Shown here: piece by piece, positions 7,628 to 28,846 of the stretch
Position numbering within the stretch: the stretch's first letter is position 1
Layout of the letters: the number at the start of each line of letters is the position of its first letter
DNA from: a virus
DNA length: 30,398 bases
Virus record (IMG/VR): IMGVR_UViG_3300034759_000309
Span: 1 to 30,398 of that record
Reading direction: 5' to 3' (one strand)
Translations under genes and position numbers: made by a program
Notes under the pieces: generated by a model
Seen by the model: only the letters and a program-made list of their open reading frames with translations
Database searches by the model: none
Told to the model about the DNA's origin: nothing

Positions 7628-8185
7628 TTATATAATTTCCACAGAAAATTTTGGCGGCCGTTCAACCAGGGCTATGCCATCAACAACTTCACCTGTATCA
7701 AGCACCGCTTTGCCGTTATGCTCTTTGAGCTTTTTCTTGAGTTCAGCCTTTTTAATCTTCGGTTCCATTTCGATATATTCAGGTGCGTTTTTCAGAAGCC
7801 ATTTAACGAGAGCGTCGTCATCATATACATATTCCTCCCCTATATCTCTTATTTTGGTTTTGCCGTAGGGCAGGCTGATGGTCTTTATTGATGGATCTTG
7901 GGCATACAAGCTGCGGTGGTATTCTTCCAAAAGACCGGTAAAGAAATCTATGTTTCTCTGTATTTTTTTATCTTCCTCCTCATACCAGCTTTTTATCTTT
8001 TCTATTTCCTCATCCATCAGTTTTTTGTTTTCTTCTCTTGTCTGATAACGCTTTTTAAGTTTTTTTAAAGCCCAATTAGCCTGAGCTTTATCCGTTATTC
8101 TAAACCGCTGTTTTAGTTCCTGCTTTTCTTCTTCGCTGTCAGGAACATCATCAATATCCAGTATATCCAGCTTTTCAACAGCCAA
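7628..8185 (-). CDS. gam: Gam-like DNA-end-binding (host nuclease inhibitor) protein
   Basis: A 185-residue protein with a TTG start at 8185 (AAAGGAG ten bases before). Its layout matches the Mu Gam family: a helical region with RITDKAQANWALKKL, then a long coiled coil containing EIEKIKSWYEEEDKKIQRNI and FFTGLLEEYHRSL. The strand TISLPYGKTKIR follows, then DDDALVKWLLKNAPEYIE and the C-terminal V.G..LVERPPKFSVE. Mu Gam is a bacterial Ku homologue that coats double-stranded DNA ends and blocks exonucleases such as RecBCD. Length is close to the usual 170-180. In this setting it would protect linear or broken forms of the element, or join in recombination. Confidence 0.85.
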   Translation of the reverse strand: MAVEKLDILDIDDVPDSEEEKQELKQRFRITDKAQANWALKKLKKRYQTREENKKLMDEEIEKIKSWYEEEDKKIQRNIDFFTGLLEEYHRSLYAQDPSIKTISLPYGKTKIRDIGEEYVYDDDALVKWLLKNAPEYIEMEPKIKKAELKKKLKEHNGKAVLDTGEVVDGIALVERPPKFSVEII

Positions 8186-8223
8186 AACAAATCATCTCCT
8201 TTAAAATTTTATAAAAAAGAACG

Positions 8224-8249
8224 GAACCGGAAACATTAATTTCCGGTTC
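8224..8249 (-). terminator. Intrinsic terminator after the solitary CRISPR repeat
   Basis: On the minus strand a perfect ten-base stem GAACCGGAAA/TTTCCGGTTC with a six-base loop is followed by CGTTCTTTTTT. This is the best-formed terminator in the region. It lies 16 bases after the end of the CRISPR repeat, and upstream of the gam-like ribosome site. Confidence 0.75.
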
Positions 8250-8265
8250 TCCCTGTTCCGCCTTC

Positions 8266-8297
8266 GTTTCAATCCACACCTCCACGTGAGGGACGAC
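8266..8297 (-). CRISPR. Solitary type I-C-like CRISPR repeat
   Basis: Thirty-two bases which on the minus strand begin GTCGTCCCTCACGTGGAGG and end GTGTGGATTGAAAC. This is the form of type I-C repeats: GTCG start, short CCTC/GAGG hairpin, and the GTGGATTGAAAC end that makes the crRNA 5' tag. No second copy was found in the window and no cas gene is present. It lies 20 bases past the stop of the clamp-like gene and is followed by a strong terminator at 8224-8249. This repeat-plus-terminator layout matches solitary repeat units described as RNA anti-CRISPRs. A remnant of a lost array is the alternative. Confidence 0.8.
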
Positions 8298-8317
8298 TCC
8301 CGGGAAGCTGTACCAGT

Positions 8318-9148
8318 TTAACAGCTCTTTGTTTTTATAGGCATAATTATGGCTTGTACTGTATCTTTAGAAAAAATAACAGGTGATAGTGAATCTTCCC
8401 ATTTGACGACAATTTCGTCACTATTATTAAAACAATCTAGAATATAGTCTACGAATTCAGGATTCAGAGCTATTTGCGTTCCATCAAAATTAGCTATAAG
8501 AACTTTTTGACCTGCTAACTCAACTATATATAGTTGAAACTTTTTACCAAATTCTTCCTTTCTGATCGATGCACTTTCTGTTAATTTCATACTGTTGTCT
8601 TTAATTATTTCTTCAATATCTGGAAATTCTCCTTTGATATCATATACCATTTCTGACCCAGTTTGACCCGGAAAAGCACATAAAGGAAGAAGAAACTTAG
8701 GGTCCTTGATATCTATAGTGTCCCATGTTATTAACTTTCCTTTAAGATGCTCCGGAATTTCATTGCAATAAATATTTATACCAATAAAACCATTTGTAGC
8801 AGATATCTTGTCTGAATATATTTTGACACAATGTAAAATTGGAAAAATAAATGGTAATTCTTCGTAATCCTTTTTACAAAACCTGGTGGCTAGATAAAAA
8901 TTCTTTTCAAATGAATTTAAAGTATTGCTTTGGATCTTGGTGTTAATGATTTTTTTGACAGTAGTTCGATATTCTGCTTTTGCTGCTTCTAATTCTTCCT
9001 CAGCGCTTTTAATTTTTTGTAAAACTTCTTCGTCTTCATATATATCTTCATATACCAAGTCATCATATTCATCATACTCATTTCGAGCATTGTTTAGTTT
9101 TTTCTCAGCGTTTAAAATTTTTTCTTTTAGCTCTTTTAAAAATTCCAT
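8318..9148 (-). CDS. Divergent sliding-clamp-like protein with N-terminal coiled coil
   Basis: About 276 residues from the ATG at 9148 (MEFLKELKEK), chosen because GAAGAGGTG precedes it. The first 75 residues are a charged coiled coil (KEKILNAEKKLNNARNEYDE). The rest reads like clamp modules: PILHCVKIYSDKISATNGF echoes the first clamp strands, and the C-terminus FVDYILDCFNNSDEIVVKW, then DSLSPVIF and AIIMPIK, echoes the last DnaN domain (LLDAL..., DS.SP..., MPMRL). Full clamps are about 370 residues in three domains; only about 180 are clamp-like here, so two domains at most. It could be a clamp paralogue, decoy or modulator alongside the dnaN at the left edge. Similarity is judged by eye. 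Confidence 0.55.
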   Translation of the reverse strand: MEFLKELKEKILNAEKKLNNARNEYDEYDDLVYEDIYEDEEVLQKIKSAEEELEAAKAEYRTTVKKIINTKIQSNTLNSFEKNFYLATRFCKKDYEELPFIFPILHCVKIYSDKISATNGFIGINIYCNEIPEHLKGKLITWDTIDIKDPKFLLPLCAFPGQTGSEMVYDIKGEFPDIEEIIKDNSMKLTESASIRKEEFGKKFQLYIVELAGQKVLIANFDGTQIALNPEFVDYILDCFNNSDEIVVKWEDSLSPVIFSKDTVQAIIMPIKTKSC

Positions 9149-9247
9149 TTTATACACCTCTTCCATATAAATTAAAATTAAGATAATAATTTAAGTCTCA
9201 AAGCTTATAATTACAAACTTTTATAAACTCTTAGAAAAAATAATGTT

Positions 9248-15340: not shown

Positions 15341-16021
15341 TCAAATTCCTCTTACAGAAGCTCTGACATGCAGATCGTCTGCCATTTTTCTTACTTCTTC
15401 CGGAGGATATGGATTTAACTTATTCAGTTCAGGATCAATCAGCGTATCCCCCAGCCTGAACTGTTGAATGACATATCTTTCATAAGGAATCAGTTTCCGT
15501 ATTTGAATTATGTCTTCCAGGGTTAAGACAGGAACAAGTGTTGTCCTGAATTCGTGTGGTATCCTCGACTTTTTCAAGGCTTCTATACTTTCCCTGATAC
15601 TTTGGACATGGCCGTCTGTGCATTTGTTAATATAGCTGTATTTGTCCAAGGGAGCTTTGATGTCCATGGCGACATAATCCAGAATAGGGAGCAGTTCTTT
15701 TAGCTTGTCCGGATTTGTGCCGTTAGTGTCCAGTTTCACTTTCAGGTCCAGTGATTTTATTTTTTCAATAAAATCACCCAAATCCGGCTGTAGTGTCGGC
15801 TCCCCTCCAGATATGCAAACACCGTCAAGCTTGTCCTTTCGGTTGTCTAAATAAAAAAGAATATCGTCTTCAAAATACTTGGGCAGTTTTTCGGGATTTA
15901 GAACGAGATTCCGGTTATAACAGTATCTACAACGTAGATTGCAACCACCTGTGAAAATTGTAGCACAAATATTCCCAGGAAAATCAATTATGCTTACTTT
16001 TTGGAAGCCCCTGATAACCAT
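15341..16021 (-). CDS. nrdG: Anaerobic ribonucleoside-triphosphate reductase activating protein (radical SAM)
   Basis: A 226-residue activase that installs the glycyl radical on NrdD using S-adenosylmethionine. The N-terminus has SIIDFPGNICATIFTGGCNL, leading into the radical SAM triad CNLRCRYC (three Cys around residue 29-36). It then has the SAM-binding CISGGEPTLQ near 77 and TNGTNPD. This matches the NrdG/PflA-like type found in Clostridia. The ATG at 16021 is preceded by GGAGGT at seven bases; a TTG slightly upstream is not needed. Its partner nrdD lies 4 kb upstream on the same strand, not adjacent. A relic of its 5' end lies at 16591-16730. Confidence 0.9.
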   Translation of the reverse strand: MVIRGFQKVSIIDFPGNICATIFTGGCNLRCRYCYNRNLVLNPEKLPKYFEDDILFYLDNRKDKLDGVCISGGEPTLQPDLGDFIEKIKSLDLKVKLDTNGTNPDKLKELLPILDYVAMDIKAPLDKYSYINKCTDGHVQSIRESIEALKKSRIPHEFRTTLVPVLTLEDIIQIRKLIPYERYVIQQFRLGDTLIDPELNKLNPYPPEEVRKMADDLHVRASVRGI

Positions 16022-16055
16022 TGAGTTTACCTCCAACTTTGTTAAAATAATTTAT

Positions 16056-16081
16056 GGCAAGAAGGAAAGCTCCCTCTTGCC
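16056..16081 (-). terminator. Hairpin upstream of nrdG
   Basis: GGCAAGAGGG with its pairing arm CCTTCTTGCC forms a near-perfect stem between the 16160 membrane gene and nrdG. It probably ends the upstream transcript, with a short AT-rich tract following on the minus strand. Confidence 0.5.
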
Positions 16082-16590: not shown

Positions 16591-16730
16591 GGGCAGTTTT
16601 TAAGAATTTAGAAGATATTACAGTTGTGGCAGTATCCGCAAACGCAGATTCAATCACCTGTGAAAATTATTGCACAAATATTCCCAGGAAAATCAATTAT
16701 GCTTACTTTTTGGAAGCCCCTGATATCCAT
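16591..16730 (-). pseudogene. nrdG: Relic of the nrdG 5' end
   Basis: From the ATG at 16730 the frame reads MDIRGFQKVSIIDFPGNICA, like nrdG (MVIRGFQKVSIIDFPGNICA). It is then interrupted by a TGA just before the radical SAM cysteines (GYCH still readable). DNA similarity to 15890-16021 continues to about 16591 and includes the GTAAACTCA leader. It is a partial duplication, no longer coding. Confidence 0.85.
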
Positions 16731-16735
16731 TGAGT

Positions 16736-16996
16736 TTACATCCAACCTATGTTGAATAATATTTCGCAGTCACAGTGACCACCGTGGCTGTCAAAATATT
16801 TAAGCGTTTTTTCAATATCGATTTCCGGCATTGTTTGCAATATCCGAATTGCGTATGATTTGTCATAACCGCCGTTGCATTTCCACGTGGTATTTCCATC
16901 CTTATCTTCTTTAAAGTTACAGCCTTCAGATCCGGCTAATCGTTCACAAAATTCATCCCACCTGGGATGCTTCGGATTCATTATTGTTTTCATCAT
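16736..16996 (-). CDS. DUF2695-like small protein
   Basis: An 86-residue protein from the ATG at 16996, seven bases after GAGAGGGG. It carries MNPKHPRWDEFCERL, a helix IRILQTMPEIDIEKTL and the closing YFDSHGGHCDCEILFN, the pattern I associate with DUF2695 proteins. The His/Cys cluster HGGHCDC may bind metal. Its last codons (GWM, TAA) coincide with the duplicated nrdG leader, where the original GGAGGT has become GGATGT. It overlaps the 3' end of the upstream gene by 44 bases. Confidence 0.65.
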   Translation of the reverse strand: MMKTIMNPKHPRWDEFCERLAGSEGCNFKEDKDGNTTWKCNGGYDKSYAIRILQTMPEIDIEKTLKYFDSHGGHCDCEILFNIGWM

Positions 16997-20363: not shown

Positions 20364-23300
20364 TTAAATGTTATAGGTTACCCTTTCCTTATACTCTTCC
20401 TGTTTCCCTTTATTCCAATTCTGCATCGGGCGATAATATCCAACCACGCGGCTCCAGACTTCAGATTCCTTACCACAGTGCGGACAGGTGAAATGCTCAC
20501 CCGGAATATATCCGTGGTCGGGACAAATCGAAAACGTTGGTGTGAAAGAAAGATACGGCAGCTTATACTGCGTAAAAATACGCTGCAATAACTTCTTGAG
20601 TGCATTAGTATCTTCTATTTTTTCTCCCGTAAACATGTGAAGCACTGTGCCGCCCGTATATTTCGTCTGAAGCTCATCCTGCAAATCAAGAGCTTCAAAG
20701 ATGTCATCGGTATAATTTACAGGAAGTTGGGTAGAGTTGGTATAATAAGGCGTATCTTTCCCTGCAGTAATGATCTCGGGATACAGTTCTTTATCAATTT
20801 TCGCCAGTCTGTAGCTTGTCCCTTCTGCAGGCGTCGCTTCCAAATTAAACATTTGCCCTGTTTCTTCCTGAAATCTTATTAATAAAGACCGCAGATGATC
20901 CAAAACTTTAAGTGCAAATTCTTGACCTTCGGGTGTTCCTATATCTTTACCCATGAAGTTCAGCAGCGCTTCATTCATACCGATTATGCCGATTGTGTTG
21001 AAGTGATTGGCCCAGTACTGGCCGAAACGTTCTTTTACCATTCTCAAGTAGTATTTAGAATACGGATAAAGTCCCAGTTCGGTCATTTGTTCAACAATTC
21101 TTCGCTTAATCAACAAACTGTCTTTGGCTAACTCTGCCAGAAATGTTAAACGTTCTAAGAAATCCTGCTCGTTCTTAGACTTGTAACCAATCCTCGGCAG
21201 ATTTAAAGTAACTACTCCGACAGAACCGGTGAGCGGATTGGCACCAAAAAGCCCGCCTCCCTTGCGCTGTAGTTCACGCACGTCCAGCCTCAGCCTGCAA
21301 CACATAGAACGCACTTGCTCGGGGCTTAAGTCCGAATTGATGAAGTTCGCAAAATAAGGCGTACCATATTTTGCCGTCATTTCCATGATATCCCCACACA
21401 CAGAACTGTCAAAGAATTCTTCAGTAATGTTGTATGTTGGGATCGGAAACGTAAAGATTCTACCTTTAGCATCCCCTTGACTCATAACCTCACAAAATGC
21501 CTTATTAATCATATTCATTTCTTCTTGGTAGTCTCCATAAGTGGGATCGTAGAACATTCTTTTGCCACCAAAGATTACAGGCTCTTTTTTCATATGTGCC
21601 GGTACTTGTACATCAAAGGTAAGATTGACAAAAGGAGTGTTGCCTGTAATAAAGACTTTGCCCTTACGGCGAGCAACGACAGTTTCGTTTTTGGTATGCG
21701 GACACCATATTACGCCGTCATAATCTATTTCTTCGATGCTTGTGATGTGGGTATCCGCATGGTCAATCAATCTCAAGACGTACACAGACTTTTTATTCAG
21801 CAACTTGGGGTTAAGATCCATTCTTCTCGTCATACAGGTGACTCCATAGCCAGCATTGACTGCAACCTGCATAAGGTCGTCCCGTAACCGTGCTGAAGCC
21901 GTAGCAATTTTGGACTTAAAGTCCCCGTCCGCGCGGAGATAAGTCCTGAGAAATTCGCGGCAGACTTCCCTCCCGCCCTGTTTGATCTTTTCTGGCACAA
22001 ACTTGATGTCACAGGCAGATTGGGGGACAGAATCAACAAAACCGAAGAACTCAAGGATCTTCCTTGTTCCTTCGGCGTTGATCCGGTACACCCAGCATTT
22101 ATTTCCAAGACCATATTGTTCATGTACCGAGTATTTGAATGGCTTCAGCAGATCCTCAATTTCTCTAGTACAGTCAGGATGTTTTGTGGGCGACTGTACG
22201 ATGCTTATCCTACCGCTTCCCCTTCCGCTCCAGTCATAGCTTCCGTCAGCCAGTATCCATGCTGCCAGCTTGACTATCCGCATGTCAACCGGTTCCTGTG
22301 GTTTGATATTCACAGTTCCTTTACCCGCCACGGGAACAAGAGGCCCTGTTTTCAGGTCGAGTATTTTTTCAACAGGTTCCATAACATACTGGTCGCTGTT
22401 GAAAACTCTCCTCACAACTCTATGGCGCGGCGAGACTAGTTGGTCTGTTATACGGCTTTTGAGTCGATACATCTTGCCTTTGTAAGGACGCGCAAATACG
22501 GTTTCAACCGGCAAATACTCAATGGTCTGGCTATCAAGGTTGAACGTCGCTATGGTCATGCCGGGCTTGACTTCGTTATACTTCTTCCACCCTTCAATGG
22601 TCAGGATCTCTGTATCTTCGCTGACGCATTGAAACCCGACGCGCGTCGGCACGTTAATGTTGAAAATGAACTCCTGCATGGCCTGCTTAACATCTTTGTA
22701 GGAGAGGCCGTCATGGCGCACGAAAGGGGCCAGGTAGGTATCGAAGTTCGCCAGTGCCTGTGCTCCTGCCGCTTCACCCTGCAAAGTATAAAAGAAGTTC
22801 ACAATTTGTCCCAAAGCTGATCGAAAATGCTTAGGTGGAGCACTTTCTATTTTTTGCGGTGCACCTTTAAAACCCTCAGTCAAAAGATCGGCAAGGTCCC
22901 AGCCACAGCAATATGGAGATAAGAGGCCCAGATCGTGAATATGAAAATCGCCGTATTCATGTGCTTCCTTAATTTTGGGTGGATATATCTTTTCCAGCCA
23001 GTACTTCTTGGACATAGCTGATACCATGTGGTTATTCAGCCCCTGCAAGGAAAAATTCATATTGCTGTTTTCTTTAACTTCCCAGGTTTTTTCGGTAATA
23101 TAATCTTGTATTAAACGGCCACTGTTTATAAGGAGATTCTGGAAATTTCGAATCTCTGCGTGCTGTTGTCTGTAAAGAATATAGGCTTTAGCAGTCTTGG
23201 CGTGGCCGTTTTCGATAAGGACCTTTTCGACGATATCTTGCACGTCTTCTACGGAAGGTATTGCAACGCCGTATTTTTCTTCCAGTATTTTAACAACCTG

Positions 23301-23432
23301 ACCGGCCAAATACTTGGCTCGGTCAAAGTCCTGGCCGCCAACTGCTCTAGCGGCCTTAAAAATGGCGTTGGTAATCTTCTCTTCGTCAAATGGAACAATT
23401 CTACCGTCACGCTTTTTAATTTTTGTCAGCAT
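20364..23432 (-). CDS. nrdD: Anaerobic (class III) ribonucleoside-triphosphate reductase with intein
   Basis: A 1022-codon frame giving a 692-residue NrdD after removal of a 330-residue intein. It reduces NTPs to dNTPs with a glycyl radical made by NrdG. An ATP-cone (KIKKRDGRIVPFDEEKITNA, about 1-95) is followed by the catalytic barrel with NVPTRVGFQ|TPFVNLTFD split by the intein. SMCCRLRLD comes next, then the C-terminal zinc site CPDHGY...CPHCG and the glycyl-radical loop RVVGYYRP (Gly998 of the precursor). The start is the ATG at 23432 after AGGAGGAGG; longer frames upstream lie in tdk. It overlaps the end of tdk by 17 bases, so the two are translationally linked. The ATP-cone implies dATP feedback control. 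Confidence 0.95.
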   Translation of the reverse strand: MLTKIKKRDGRIVPFDEEKITNAIFKAARAVGGQDFDRAKYLAGQVVKILEEKYGVAIPSVEDVQDIVEKVLIENGHAKTAKAYILYRQQHAEIRNFQNLLINSGRLIQDYITEKTWEVKENSNMNFSLQGLNNHMVSAMSKKYWLEKIYPPKIKEAHEYGDFHIHDLGLLSPYCCGWDLADLLTEGFKGAPQKIESAPPKHFRSALGQIVNFFYTLQGEAAGAQALANFDTYLAPFVRHDGLSYKDVKQAMQEFIFNINVPTRVGFQCVSEDTEILTIEGWKKYNEVKPGMTIATFNLDSQTIEYLPVETVFARPYKGKMYRLKSRITDQLVSPRHRVVRRVFNSDQYVMEPVEKILDLKTGPLVPVAGKGTVNIKPQEPVDMRIVKLAAWILADGSYDWSGRGSGRISIVQSPTKHPDCTREIEDLLKPFKYSVHEQYGLGNKCWVYRINAEGTRKILEFFGFVDSVPQSACDIKFVPEKIKQGGREVCREFLRTYLRADGDFKSKIATASARLRDDLMQVAVNAGYGVTCMTRRMDLNPKLLNKKSVYVLRLIDHADTHITSIEEIDYDGVIWCPHTKNETVVARRKGKVFITGNTPFVNLTFDVQVPAHMKKEPVIFGGKRMFYDPTYGDYQEEMNMINKAFCEVMSQGDAKGRIFTFPIPTYNITEEFFDSSVCGDIMEMTAKYGTPYFANFINSDLSPEQVRSMCCRLRLDVRELQRKGGGLFGANPLTGSVGVVTLNLPRIGYKSKNEQDFLERLTFLAELAKDSLLIKRRIVEQMTELGLYPYSKYYLRMVKERFGQYWANHFNTIGIIGMNEALLNFMGKDIGTPEGQEFALKVLDHLRSLLIRFQEETGQMFNLEATPAEGTSYRLAKIDKELYPEIITAGKDTPYYTNSTQLPVNYTDDIFEALDLQDELQTKYTGGTVLHMFTGEKIEDTNALKKLLQRIFTQYKLPYLSFTPTFSICPDHGYIPGEHFTCPHCGKESEVWSRVVGYYRPMQNWNKGKQEEYKERVTYNI
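21639..22628 (-). other. Intein with LAGLIDADG homing endonuclease inside nrdD
   Basis: Residues 269-598 of the nrdD precursor. It begins CVSEDTEILTIEGWKKYNEV (block A, Cys1). Block B-like LVSPRHRVVRR lies near 332-342, and two LAGLIDADG motifs, LAAWILADGSY near 389 and FLRTYLRADGDF near 494, mark a homing endonuclease. The end is VARRKGKVFITGN, followed by Thr+1. The usual penultimate His is Gly here, while the final Asn is kept, so splicing may depend on another residue. The insertion point, inside the strictly conserved NVPTRVGFQTPF active-site loop, is typical of inteins. Confidence 0.93.
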
Positions 23433-24006
23433 GTTTTTCCTCCTCCTGTTTTTTATACCAGCAACGCCGGCACAGGGCAATGTAATTATTGCCCAACACA
23501 ACATCCTCTGTTTTGTTAAACTTGGGCCAGCAGCGGACTGCTGGATTGCCGCACTCAGTACAAACACCGTATACCTGAGTAATCACATCGGCTCTGGCTA
23601 AGAGTTCGGGCATCGGCCCAAAAGACCGCCCATCAGCCAGGAGTGTTAGACCAGCACCAATAACAATATGCTCACTTTTTACAAGTTCTTCTATTACAGT
23701 AATGATGCTGGCCGGGAATAACTGAATTTCGTCGATGCCAACAACTTCAATATGAGGATCTAACTTTGTCAGTATTTCCTCAGGGTCTTTAATTTCGATT
23801 CCGGGCATTTGGATACCGTTGTGTGCAACAACTTTCCCGGTTGCTTTGTAGCGGTCCTGTGACCCCTTAGGATAAAATAATTGGACCTTACGTCCGGCCC
23901 GAATAAAAGTTTCCAACCGAGTTAGCAATGTGCTTGTTTTGCCGGCAAACATAGAACCTGAAGTAATTAACTCGAATAAACTGTTGTCCTTACGATAATA
24001 CAACAT
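23416..24006 (-). CDS. tdk: Thymidine kinase (type II)
   Basis: A 196-residue kinase that phosphorylates thymidine to dTMP in nucleotide salvage. The P-loop GSMFAGKTSTL lies near residue 17, the DEIQLF motif (Walker B-like) near 92, the lasso region with FGPMPELLARAD, and a zinc site CTECGNPAVRC plus CRRC near the end. The start is the ATG at 24006 behind AGGGGGTGATAAAA; a GTG three codons upstream overlaps that site. It overlaps nrdD, making a dNTP-supply operon. Such pairing is common in phages and large plasmids. Confidence 0.93.
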   Translation of the reverse strand: MLYYRKDNSLFELITSGSMFAGKTSTLLTRLETFIRAGRKVQLFYPKGSQDRYKATGKVVAHNGIQMPGIEIKDPEEILTKLDPHIEVVGIDEIQLFPASIITVIEELVKSEHIVIGAGLTLLADGRSFGPMPELLARADVITQVYGVCTECGNPAVRCWPKFNKTEDVVLGNNYIALCRRCWYKKQEEEKHADKN

Positions 24007-24260: not shown

Positions 24261-25841
24261 GTGACTTCCTCCCACGTCTAAAGACATGGGCTTCCCGTTG
24301 GGGCAAATGAAACCCTTGGCGCGGTTACAGTGGTAAACGCTCCTTTTGACCCGTTGCCGGATGAGCTCCCACAGGCGACCGTCACACCGTCGCAACTACT
24401 CCAGGTGCTTTGGTTCAGGCCGCAGCCCTTGGAGATACTTTTGTATATTTGTTTAATCTTTTATCCCACCGGTATACTTCCGGTGCTTTAAGAGTAAACT
24501 GCTGCTTTGAATCACAGCGGCCGTAAAGGTAGTTCTTTAAAATGCCATTTGCACCGTTTAAATCGGCATGGATTATCGCACCGCATTTTCTGCAGCGCCA
24601 AAGGCCCCTGTGGACCCGGTAGGATTTGTTCCTTGCTCCGCAGCAGCTGCATGTCCGAGAGCTGTATCTCTCACTTCCTTTATCAGGCCGTATTTGCTTG
24701 AGCAGGGACTTGTATGCATGCTGCTGCTCAATTTGAGCATACGGCAGTTGGTTGATCTTCTGGTTGGATTTTTTGCCTTTGTCACCTGTCCTGGACGCCC
24801 GCCGGAGATCGGTTAAATCACCCAACACAGAAACAGCTGTGTTTTCCGTCCAGTCCAGTTCGGCCATCAGCTTGGTTAAAGCGTTGGTCAATTGCTTTAT
24901 CCAGCGGTCCAGCTTTTTGAGAACCTTGCGCTTGGCGTTTAAAAGCGTCTTCCATCTCCGGGAACCTTCTTTCAGTCTTGACATCTTCTGCTGAAACTCA
25001 GCCGTTATTTTGTTCCGATACTGGATTAAAGAAAGCAGTTCCCGGCAGACGATTAACTGCTGGCTGCCTTCCGTGGATACTCTGGCAATCAGAGCCGTAT
25101 TCAGGTCATACGCCGATACTCCATTACCTGTAATTAAAGGCACTGCACCAAAATCCCAGGTAATGTGCATCTCTAATCCTGTGACTTTTCTTCTGCGGTA
25201 AACAGCTTTAATCTTTGCCTCAACAGGCGTGCCGACCAGAATAGTACCATCCGGTAATTTAAGTGAATCAGCACCTTCCGGCAGAGGCACCTCGACATCA
25301 TCTAGCTTACGGGCTAATTTCAAAGTTATCGTGTCCTTACGGTATTCGAATCCCTGTCGTTTCCAGGTAATGGTGCGCAGCATGTTTTTGTTTTTAAAGC
25401 CCGGCGGCTGCATTTCATCGTGGCCGTTTTTATGATGCCCGGCATACGACCGCACCGCTTCAAAATATTCTTCCACTACAGCTTGAGCACTCTGCGAATG
25501 AAGCTGCTTCCAGGATTCGTAATGTTTAAACTTCTCCTTCAGTTCACTTTCAGTCGGATACTTTTCATTTTTCTTGCGGGCTTCCCGGCTGTGCCATACA
25601 CAGGAGTTCCAGATTTTTGTGGCGGCCAGCATGGATCTTTTAAATACGGGCAGCCAGATATCCAGTGAAAGCGGTATTGCTCTGGTTAAATACAGCCGGT
25701 TTTCTTGTTTTTTGCCTTTTTTCTTCGCCCAGCCCATTTTTTCACCTTCCGTTCATCCCGATATTTTTTTGCTGGGGAAACTTACTCCCCAGCAAAAAAG
25801 CTGCTTTCATCCCACCCTTTAAAAGAGATGGGTTTTCTCGC
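24261..25841 (-). mobile_element. IS200/IS605-type element carrying tnpB only (IS1341-like)
   Basis: The left end has hairpin CCCATCTCTTTTAAAGGGTGGG (25811-25832) and a long palindrome TTTTTTGCTGGGG/CCCCAGCAAAAAA (25765-25799). The right end has CCCATGTCTTTAGACGTGGG (24271-24290) followed by AGGAAGTCAC. Between tnpB and the right end are about 150 bases of GC-rich sequence, the expected place of the guide (omega) RNA scaffold. No tnpA is present, so transposition would need a helper. Boundaries were set from the palindromes and by restoring the interrupted gene. Confidence 0.8.
24415..25737 (-). CDS. tnpB: TnpB RNA-guided nuclease-like protein
   Basis: A 440-residue protein; GGAAGGTG precedes the ATG. 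TnpB proteins are RuvC-type nucleases guided by the transposon right-end RNA. Visible parts are an N-terminal nucleic-acid-binding half and a RuvC-I-like segment with SAYDLNTALIARVS near residue 208. A long coiled region and SVLGDLTDLRRAS near 304 follow, where the usual catalytic Glu of ..EDL.. appears as Gly. The zinc ribbon is CSCCGARNK...CRKCG, and RuvC-III is HADLNGANGIL with its Asp. The changed second site could mean a nuclease-dead protein, or a rearranged Glu such as the one in YAQIEQQHAYKSL. Confidence 0.85.
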   Translation of the reverse strand: MGWAKKKGKKQENRLYLTRAIPLSLDIWLPVFKRSMLAATKIWNSCVWHSREARKKNEKYPTESELKEKFKHYESWKQLHSQSAQAVVEEYFEAVRSYAGHHKNGHDEMQPPGFKNKNMLRTITWKRQGFEYRKDTITLKLARKLDDVEVPLPEGADSLKLPDGTILVGTPVEAKIKAVYRRRKVTGLEMHITWDFGAVPLITGNGVSAYDLNTALIARVSTEGSQQLIVCRELLSLIQYRNKITAEFQQKMSRLKEGSRRWKTLLNAKRKVLKKLDRWIKQLTNALTKLMAELDWTENTAVSVLGDLTDLRRASRTGDKGKKSNQKINQLPYAQIEQQHAYKSLLKQIRPDKGSERYSSRTCSCCGARNKSYRVHRGLWRCRKCGAIIHADLNGANGILKNYLYGRCDSKQQFTLKAPEVYRWDKRLNKYTKVSPRAAA

Positions 25842-26608: not shown

Positions 26609-26851
26609 TCAAGCAATTGAAGCGGCTTCTTCTTTAAACTTATATATCGGCAAAAGTTTTTCACCAACTGCTTTTTGATTTTTAACCAACTTTTCTATTT
26701 CGTCTAAAATGCTGTCGTCATAGTATTCCTCGGCGCAATTTTCACACATGTATACTGGCACATCTTTTATTATTATATGGTTCCCGTTTAGGTTCTGCTC
26801 GATATCTTTTTTCATTCTTTTTAAGTCATGTCCGCAAAATACACACTTCAT
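26609..26851 (-). CDS. YgiT-type zinc-finger antitoxin-like protein
   Basis: Eighty residues with MKCVFCGH at the start and CENCAEEYYDD near residue 36: the two CxxC pairs of the YgiT/MqsA N-terminal zinc domain, followed by a short helical tail without the DNA-binding domain of full MqsA. AAAGGAGCGATAAAA precedes the ATG. It directly follows a DUF4258 gene; this pair is a recurrent toxin-antitoxin-like arrangement, with this one as the antitoxin. Confidence 0.75.
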   Translation of the reverse strand: MKCVFCGHDLKRMKKDIEQNLNGNHIIIKDVPVYMCENCAEEYYDDSILDEIEKLVKNQKAVGEKLLPIYKFKEEAASIA

Positions 26852-26886
26852 TTTTATCGCTCCTTTTTATATTTACGGCTTTATAT

Positions 26887-27198
26887 TCACAGCCAACCAT
26901 TTTTTCTGGTTTTATAATCACTTTCAAATCTATTATCTGGTATATATACCGTTTTTATGACAATTTTTTCTTCATAATTTACAAAAACCACATGATAGGG
27001 TTTATAAAATAAAAAGAATATTATATAAAATTCTCCATAACCGTATCGCCATATATATTCTATAATTTCTCCTTTTATAATCCCGTTTTTTACATTATCT
27101 CTTGTTATATTATATTTACTTATTTTTTCCAGAGCATGTTTTGTCCAAATTAATTTATTGTTATTTACCTTTTCTATTATTTCAAGTGGCTTTTCCAT
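26887..27198 (-). CDS. DUF4258 toxin-like protein
   Basis: A 103-residue protein with WTKHALEKISKYNITRDNV, then IIKGEIIEYIW and late VVFVNYEEKIVIKTVYIPD. The W..HA..KI......R..V...I..GEIIE order is that of DUF4258, a RelE/HigB-like fold thought to act as an mRNA-cleaving toxin. It stands first in a two-gene unit, 35 bases before the YgiT-type antitoxin gene, with a good AAAGGAG site. Activity is not shown by sequence alone. Confidence 0.75.
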   Translation of the reverse strand: MEKPLEIIEKVNNNKLIWTKHALEKISKYNITRDNVKNGIIKGEIIEYIWRYGYGEFYIIFFLFYKPYHVVFVNYEEKIVIKTVYIPDNRFESDYKTRKNGWL

Positions 27199-27532: not shown

Positions 27533-28846
27533 CTATGCCACTTTTACCAGGCTTCTCATTTTTTCCTGCTGTTTTTCCTTTATCCTTCCTACGGCCATCG
27601 CCAACATCACACACAAAGCAATACCGCATCTGACTGCCATTTTCTTCTTGCCCCGGATGTAGTGTTTCTCAAAACCAAAGGATACATCCAGCCTGCTATT
27701 CACCCTCTCTACAGATGTCCTTTTATCGTAATACTTTTCCCACTTGTAGCTGGCTCTGTCGATCGGTGTGAATATCCTTCTATCCGTCTCCAGTGGTATC
27801 CGTATCCCTTGCTTTACTGTACATATATCCATGCTCTTGCAGCATAATCCATACTGCTTTGCCGGACATAGCTTCTTCAGCGTGTTCCTGTCTTTTTCAA
27901 AACCCCCTACACACATTTCTCTTCTTTCAAGCGTCTTTTCACAATAACAATATACATTCCCTTTATAGTCGTATACCACATTCTCATATCCCGGCAACTG
28001 CCGTGTCTCTTCTCCATCCTTCCAGCAGTTCCTGATATCTATCACCGGCTTGATCCCAAACTGATCATACAGCTTTATTATTAGTTTGCTGTCATCATAT
28101 CCCCGGTCAGCTTCCATCGTCTCACAAGTTTCAAGTATTTCAGGCCGCTCTTGCTCTAGTCTATCAACCATCCGGTGAGCTTCATTAATGTCCGGCTCCG
28201 ATGCTTTGGTTACACTGTAGCCCACCGGTAGATCATAATTCGAATCCACGACGAGGTGCAGCTTATACCCAAACCACTTCACAATCTTTTCCCAAGCACT
28301 CCCGTCTTCTCTGATACCACGATACTCCTTTTTACCCCAATCAGCATCTTTGTCTCTACGCCCATCCGTTTCCTTATTTTTATTTTTACCCGTAGCCAGT
28401 GAGCTTATTGCCTTGCTATCAATAGCTAGATCTTTCCCAAAGTCGGGTAAGAGTCTTCTCAACTCTTCTACCAGCGTCTCAAAAATTTTATTGATTTTTT
28501 CCTCATGAATTAGCAGCTTCTTTAAGAATCTCGTGTAGACCCATTCGGGGGGAACTGCTTTGTCACCACTTCCATAAAAACCACACATAAAGCGCAGTTG
28601 CCCGTTCCTTGAAAGCTCACGTCTTAAGCTTTCTACAGATGTGTGCTGGAATACCACACCTGCCAACACTGAGTTCCACATCGCACGGATCGGATAATCA
28701 TCCCGGCCATTCTTGCGTTCCTTCTCCAGCTTGCACATCAGGTCTTCGTCAGGCATATATTCAATGACTAATCTTAATCTTTCCAGATCGCCTAATTCTT
28801 CAATTTCTTCCCACCTAAACATCGATATTTGTGGTATAATAGCCAT
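27533..28846 (-). CDS. DDE transposase (IS1182/IS4-like)
   Basis: A 437-residue transposase, apparently intact. DDE residues are readable: LAIDSKAISS near residue 140, then ETMEADRGYDDSKLI near 243, and RTSVERVNSRLDVSFGF near 383. Between the second and third are cysteines (CYCEKTLERREMC, CPAKQYGLCCKS) typical of the IS1182-like group. The first 100 residues (EYMPDEDLMCKLEK, SVESLRRELSRNGQLRFMCG) match the helical N-terminal domain of such enzymes. The ATG follows an AAGGGGGTTC site. The element's ends were not defined. Confidence 0.85.
   Translation of the reverse strand: MAIIPQISMFRWEEIEELGDLERLRLVIEYMPDEDLMCKLEKERKNGRDDYPIRAMWNSVLAGVVFQHTSVESLRRELSRNGQLRFMCGFYGSGDKAVPPEWVYTRFLKKLLIHEEKINKIFETLVEELRRLLPDFGKDLAIDSKAISSLATGKNKNKETDGRRDKDADWGKKEYRGIREDGSAWEKIVKWFGYKLHLVVDSNYDLPVGYSVTKASEPDINEAHRMVDRLEQERPEILETCETMEADRGYDDSKLIIKLYDQFGIKPVIDIRNCWKDGEETRQLPGYENVVYDYKGNVYCYCEKTLERREMCVGGFEKDRNTLKKLCPAKQYGLCCKSMDICTVKQGIRIPLETDRRIFTPIDRASYKWEKYYDKRTSVERVNSRLDVSFGFEKHYIRGKKKMAVRCGIALCVMLAMAVGRIKEKQQEKMRSLVKVA

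Follow-up and report, generated by a model that had tools for sequence, protein, structure and literature searches.

In type I-C CRISPR systems, pre-crRNA is cut by the nuclease Cas5. For Cas5d, a 3-bp stem with a tetraloop has been reported as the minimum (PMC7064716). Viral sequences hold 2,103 solitary repeat units (PMC10651486). Some solitary repeats are RNA anti-CRISPRs (Racrs), such as RacrIC1 of a Bifidobacterium pseudocatenulatum prophage, which lies 11 nt after the acrIC5 gene, is expressed together with it, and has been shown to inhibit type I-C (PMC10651486; Camara-Wilpert et al. 2023). In the case of RacrIF1, stem changes that prevented Cas6f binding led to the loss of all inhibition (PMC10651486). 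Repeats found outside arrays need not be well conserved to work, since functional ectopic repeats are often degenerate, as in CreTA (PMC9458426).

Here we describe a repeat at positions 8266-8297 of a 30,398-base stretch of DNA (the window), which is the virus record itself. Like RacrIC1, it is a solitary I-C repeat located a few bases 3' of a same-strand gene, without cas genes; unlike RacrIC1, which follows acrIC5, it follows a weakly clamp-like gene, has a broken stem, and is known from sequence alone. Being intergenic, isolated, and part of a virus record, it resembles the viral solitary repeat units (PMC10651486). Among the viral and array repeats compared here its best identity is 87.5%; SRUFinder, which draws on a repeat list of its own, asks for 90% identity or more to a known repeat and a bit score of at least 41.1. 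The closest true arrays found, those of Nitratidesulfovibrio vulgaris plasmids, share 27 of its 32 bases (37 bits) and the same start and end motifs; unlike these real arrays with their many copies, it is present as a single copy. Finally, it is a degenerate repeat outside an array, as are CreA and other ectopic degenerate repeats (PMC9458426), although the second pseudo-repeat, CreT toxin, and target site that accompany CreA were not found here. The repeat joins the I-C solitary repeat units, a class already known, in which some members are RNA anti-CRISPRs. Features of the locus are summarized in Table 1.

Table 1. Features at and around the solitary repeat, in 5' to 3' order of the minus strand; positions are those of the window.
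Feature	Positions	Strand	Details
282-aa protein, last ~50 residues weakly beta-clamp (DnaN)-like	8318..9166	(-)	3' untranslated tail contains the repeat
20-nt linker, stop codon to repeat	8298..8317	(-)	in the native transcript, predicted base-pairing with positions 12-23 of the repeat
Solitary, diverged type I-C CRISPR repeat	8266..8297	(-)	GTCGTCCCTCACGTGGAGGTGTGGATTGAAAC, read from 8297 to 8266, 32 nt
16-nt gap, repeat to terminator; would-be pseudo-spacer start	8250..8265	(-)	unique sequence directly 3' of the handle
Intrinsic terminator	8213..8249	(-)	GAACCGGAAA-TTAATG-TTTCCGGTTC, then CGTTCTTTTTT T tract
Mu Gam-like DNA-end-protection (host-nuclease inhibitor) protein	7628..8185	(-)	PF07352, E 7e-26; phrog_2205, E 6e-46

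Identity and surroundings of the repeat

The repeat carries both type I-C anchors exactly (GTCG at the 5' end, GTGGATTGAAAC at the 3' end), conforms in sequence to an I-C repeat by descent (GTCG start, GTGGATTGAAA(C/T) end, 32 nt), and has a wholly intact 11-nt 5' handle. Chance alone would yield the two anchors with correct spacing 7e-6 times in the 30.4-kb window, and the pair at its exact spacing appeared in none of 100 shuffles of the window. The middle 16 bases are nearer to known I-C middles than 99.5% of their own shuffles. No second copy was detected in the 30.4-kb window when up to 3 anchor mismatches were allowed, nor were two or more repeats flanking a spacer, as in viral mini-CRISPR arrays, present in the window; the repeat is single and intergenic, with no partial repeat within 100 bp. 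Among the scanned proteins of the virus record none was identified as the product of a cas gene, and the locus has no Rfam match. Given the anchors, the solitude, the middle-base match, and the 27/32 match to true arrays, the 8266-8297 sequence is a genuine type I-C repeat, solitary and diverged. An earlier sequence-only reading of this DNA had described a repeat with type I-C ends, standing alone without cas genes 20 nt past a stop codon (that of ORF 8318-9166, minus strand), and followed 16 nt later by a perfect ten-pair terminator, all of which our analysis bears out. Its statement that every landmark of a I-C repeat is present holds for the anchors and for the presence of CCTC/GAGG; however, the latter lies one base off the canonical register and the canonical stem is broken.

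Comparison of the 32-mer with the repeats of other genomes, suggested by the same reading, yielded no counterpart: the exact sequence was absent from both the viral collection and the genome collection (85,000 species), and near variants (bases 5, 6, 14, 20, and 32) were likewise absent from the genome collection. Degenerate-pattern searches of the viral collection returned one relative, L003, which is the nearest viral solitary repeat among the matches listed (28/32 identical, 87.5%) and whose 4 differences are all transitions, 2 of them in the stem. A match of the extended unit to the N. vulgaris arrays (E 0.02) was judged a chance spacer match on top of the repeat match. Searches with single proteins (Gam, clamp-like, ATPase) found no related viral loci and no related virus sharing the locus, a comparison that the earlier reading had suggested; an alignment search returned one distant viral Gam locus, without the repeat. 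A Gam-repeat linkage through a viral contig that holds both (G003/L036) was rejected because the Gam gene and the solitary I-C repeat are more than 5 kb apart.

The gene upstream of the repeat encodes a protein whose last ~50 residues weakly match the DnaN of Thermoanaerobacterium plasmid pMU3262 (pairwise E 0.001). No Pfam or PHROG family was found for it, and its predicted fold models were too low in quality for use. The next gene downstream, past the terminator, is the Gam-like gene. Since dnaN, ssb, and gam are clustered in that order on pMU3262, the neighbours are more suggestive of a module for DNA replication and end protection than of a counter-defence patch. Of the earlier proposal that Gam and clamp form such a patch, the Gam assignment is sound and the clamp likeness weak, while the gene order on pMU3262 points to replication and not to counter-defence. 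The plasmid and the virus record have gam and DUF3232 in common, and pMU3262 also carries a lone annotated cas6 adjoining an AAA ATPase (L121:29020-29748).

Elsewhere, the virus record encodes an anaerobic ribonucleotide reductase NrdD (20364-23567; 1067 aa), in which a long, intein-like extra stretch interrupts the family match, and a probable toxin-antitoxin pair (26609-27198) in which a DUF4258 protein adjoins an MqsA/YokU-like antitoxin. Two direct repeats were observed, one of 248 bp (1250-1497 and 2295-2542; 84% identical) over the ends of two similar ORFs, and one of 118 bp (15942-16059 and 16651-16768; 88% identical) around the start of a radical-SAM (NrdG-like) gene. The record also holds a DDE transposase (DUF772; 27533-28846) and an IS605-type TnpB (24415-25737), which accounts for the Cas12f matches of that ORF.

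Solitary type I-C repeats in viral sequences

A scan of IMG/VR with the pattern GTCG-N16-GTGGATTGAAA(C/T) returned at least 119 stretches. At least 97 of the matches listed are solitary, the repeat of our own window counted, and all seven canonical pairs are retained in at least 67 of the 97, compared with 1% of shuffled middles. Solitary I-C repeats are thus common in viruses, in agreement with what has been reported on solitary repeat units and Racrs (PMC10651486). The tetranucleotide AAAC directly follows 11 of the 97 listed repeats on the 3' side; after the 144 array repeats, no 4-mer occurs more than 4 times in this place, and AAAC does not rank with the most frequent ones. A ribosome site and ATG lie within 80 nt downstream in 18 of the 81 listed viral solitary repeats with good stems, in 4/81 of a control for which a shorter upstream stretch was used, and in 1/144 of the array repeats, and many viral solitary I-C repeats may thus lie in the 5' leaders of genes.

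Terminators are rare on either side of the surveyed units: in 4 of 73 listed viral I-C solitary units, 8266-8297 included, one lies no more than 110 nt downstream, and in 5 of 73 one lies upstream. A terminator of its own is therefore rejected as a hallmark of such units, contrary to the earlier description of the repeat as having one, and the 8213-8249 terminator (10 perfect stem pairs, 11 if the T-G closure is counted) is best assigned to the clamp-like gene, whose 3' tail then includes the repeat. No promoter was found in the 20-nt linker (8298-8317), and minus-strand promoter-like sites within ORF 8318-9166 are weak and at background density. This geometry would allow co-transcription of the repeat with ORF 8318-9166.

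Hairpin of the repeat

In its canonical register, the I-C stem is a 7-pair palindrome of bases 3-9 with bases 15-21. The 8266-8297 repeat lacks this palindrome: 6 of the 7 pairs are possible, with 3 G-U wobbles and a C7-A17 mismatch, and the stem energy is +1.6 kcal/mol, versus -15.1 for an intact repeat and typically -10 to -15 kcal/mol for array repeats. It is the weakest stem among the 81 listed viral solitary I-C repeats with at least 6 pairs. Predicted folding of the native transcript gives the canonical pairs a probability of approximately zero, with the 3' half of the repeat pairing instead with the 20-nt upstream linker, and the whole unit folds no better than its shuffles (z -0.68). 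CCTC/GAGG can form a shifted 4-pair hairpin, one base out of register (-4.5 kcal/mol); because this is above the minimum reported for Cas5d (PMC7064716), some Cas5 binding is possible. A host-repeat-like hairpin, which a Racr needs for Cas binding, was looked for and is absent apart from this possible shifted hairpin, and we therefore do not class the unit as a Racr, although it may yet act weakly as one.

Candidate explanations

At roughly even chances of being correct, the reading that we prefer takes 8266-8297 for a former or weak Racr, an I-C solitary repeat carried in the mRNA tail of the clamp-like gene. The unit would have arisen from a CRISPR repeat, or from an earlier unit of the Racr type, and since degenerated. 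Its ancestor would have been a decoy, the repeat hairpin of which was bound and cut by host Cas5, tying up Cas proteins in dead complexes. The present copy would be passively transcribed in the 3' untranslated tail, ending at the gene's ordinary terminator, and is predicted to be inactive or weak because the normal register no longer permits a Cas5 hairpin. Consistent with this are the exact anchors combined with the weakest stem listed, the lack of a close repeat in 85,000 species genomes, and the loss of RacrIF1 activity upon stem change (PMC10651486). Counting against it are the intact anchors and 11-nt handle, the shifted hairpin above the Cas5d minimum, and the precedent of functional yet degenerate ectopic repeats such as CreTA.

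A Racr still active against a host I-C system is a tentative alternative. Here, the clamp-gene transcript would read through the repeat to the terminator, and Cas5 would bind the handle and the shifted 4-pair hairpin, leading to sequestration of Cas proteins. In favour of this explanation, an RNA anti-CRISPR as proposed in the sequence-only reading, the I-C repeat of the virus record is solitary, intergenic, and without cas genes, it is of the same kind as RacrIC1 and in a similar place just 3' of a gene (PMC10651486), full-stem solitary I-C repeats are abundant in viral contigs (at least 67), and the shifted hairpin satisfies the Cas5d minimum. The explanation loses ground on the canonical stem, the weakest of the 81 listed, on the other pairing favoured in the native context, on the terminator, which is atypical of such units, and on the searches, in which no matching repeat in the genome collection and no related phage with the unit were found. 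A more specific form, in which an I-C RNA anti-CRISPR without the canonical Cas5 hairpin relies on the 11-nt handle plus an extended or shifted hairpin and is expressed along with a replication-clamp gene, is in our judgement improbable.

Two further possibilities are both very unlikely. The repeat and the next ~35 nt could constitute a crRNA-like, one-repeat guide RNA that, like viral mini-arrays and CreA, redirects the Cascade of the host to a gene promoter or to some other element. Unique sequence does directly follow the intact 5' handle, and degenerate ectopic repeats can function (PMC9458426); however, the window lacks a second repeat, the terminator stem occupies the pseudo-spacer after 16 nt, phage matches are partial and at chance level only, and no site with an I-C-like PAM plus seed for the pseudo-spacer occurs across the window, so that the spacer-like part is not accompanied by the nearby PAM-flanked partial target of a CreA guide. 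With equally slight probability, the repeat could be regulatory, a site in the 3' tail at which Cas5 binds or cleaves the clamp-like mRNA and through which host I-C activity alters clamp-gene expression. Its place between stop codon and terminator would suit this, and the 18/81 listed viral solitary repeats just before gene starts suggest a regulatory role for some, but 8266-8297 lies in a 3' tail and its Cas5 hairpin is poor. Least probable is that the repeat is what remains of a CRISPR array or serves as an attachment site through which host arrays are entered by integration, since despite the true I-C repeat sequence no second repeat, spacer-repeat spacing, cas genes, or adjacent integrase were found.

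If the degenerate repeat preferred here is indeed inactive, sequence motifs alone overcall RNA anti-CRISPRs, and stem energy belongs in the screen. An active unit would reveal how much divergence from the host hairpin a repeat mimic can tolerate while still blocking I-C immunity, and would link such decoys to replication genes.
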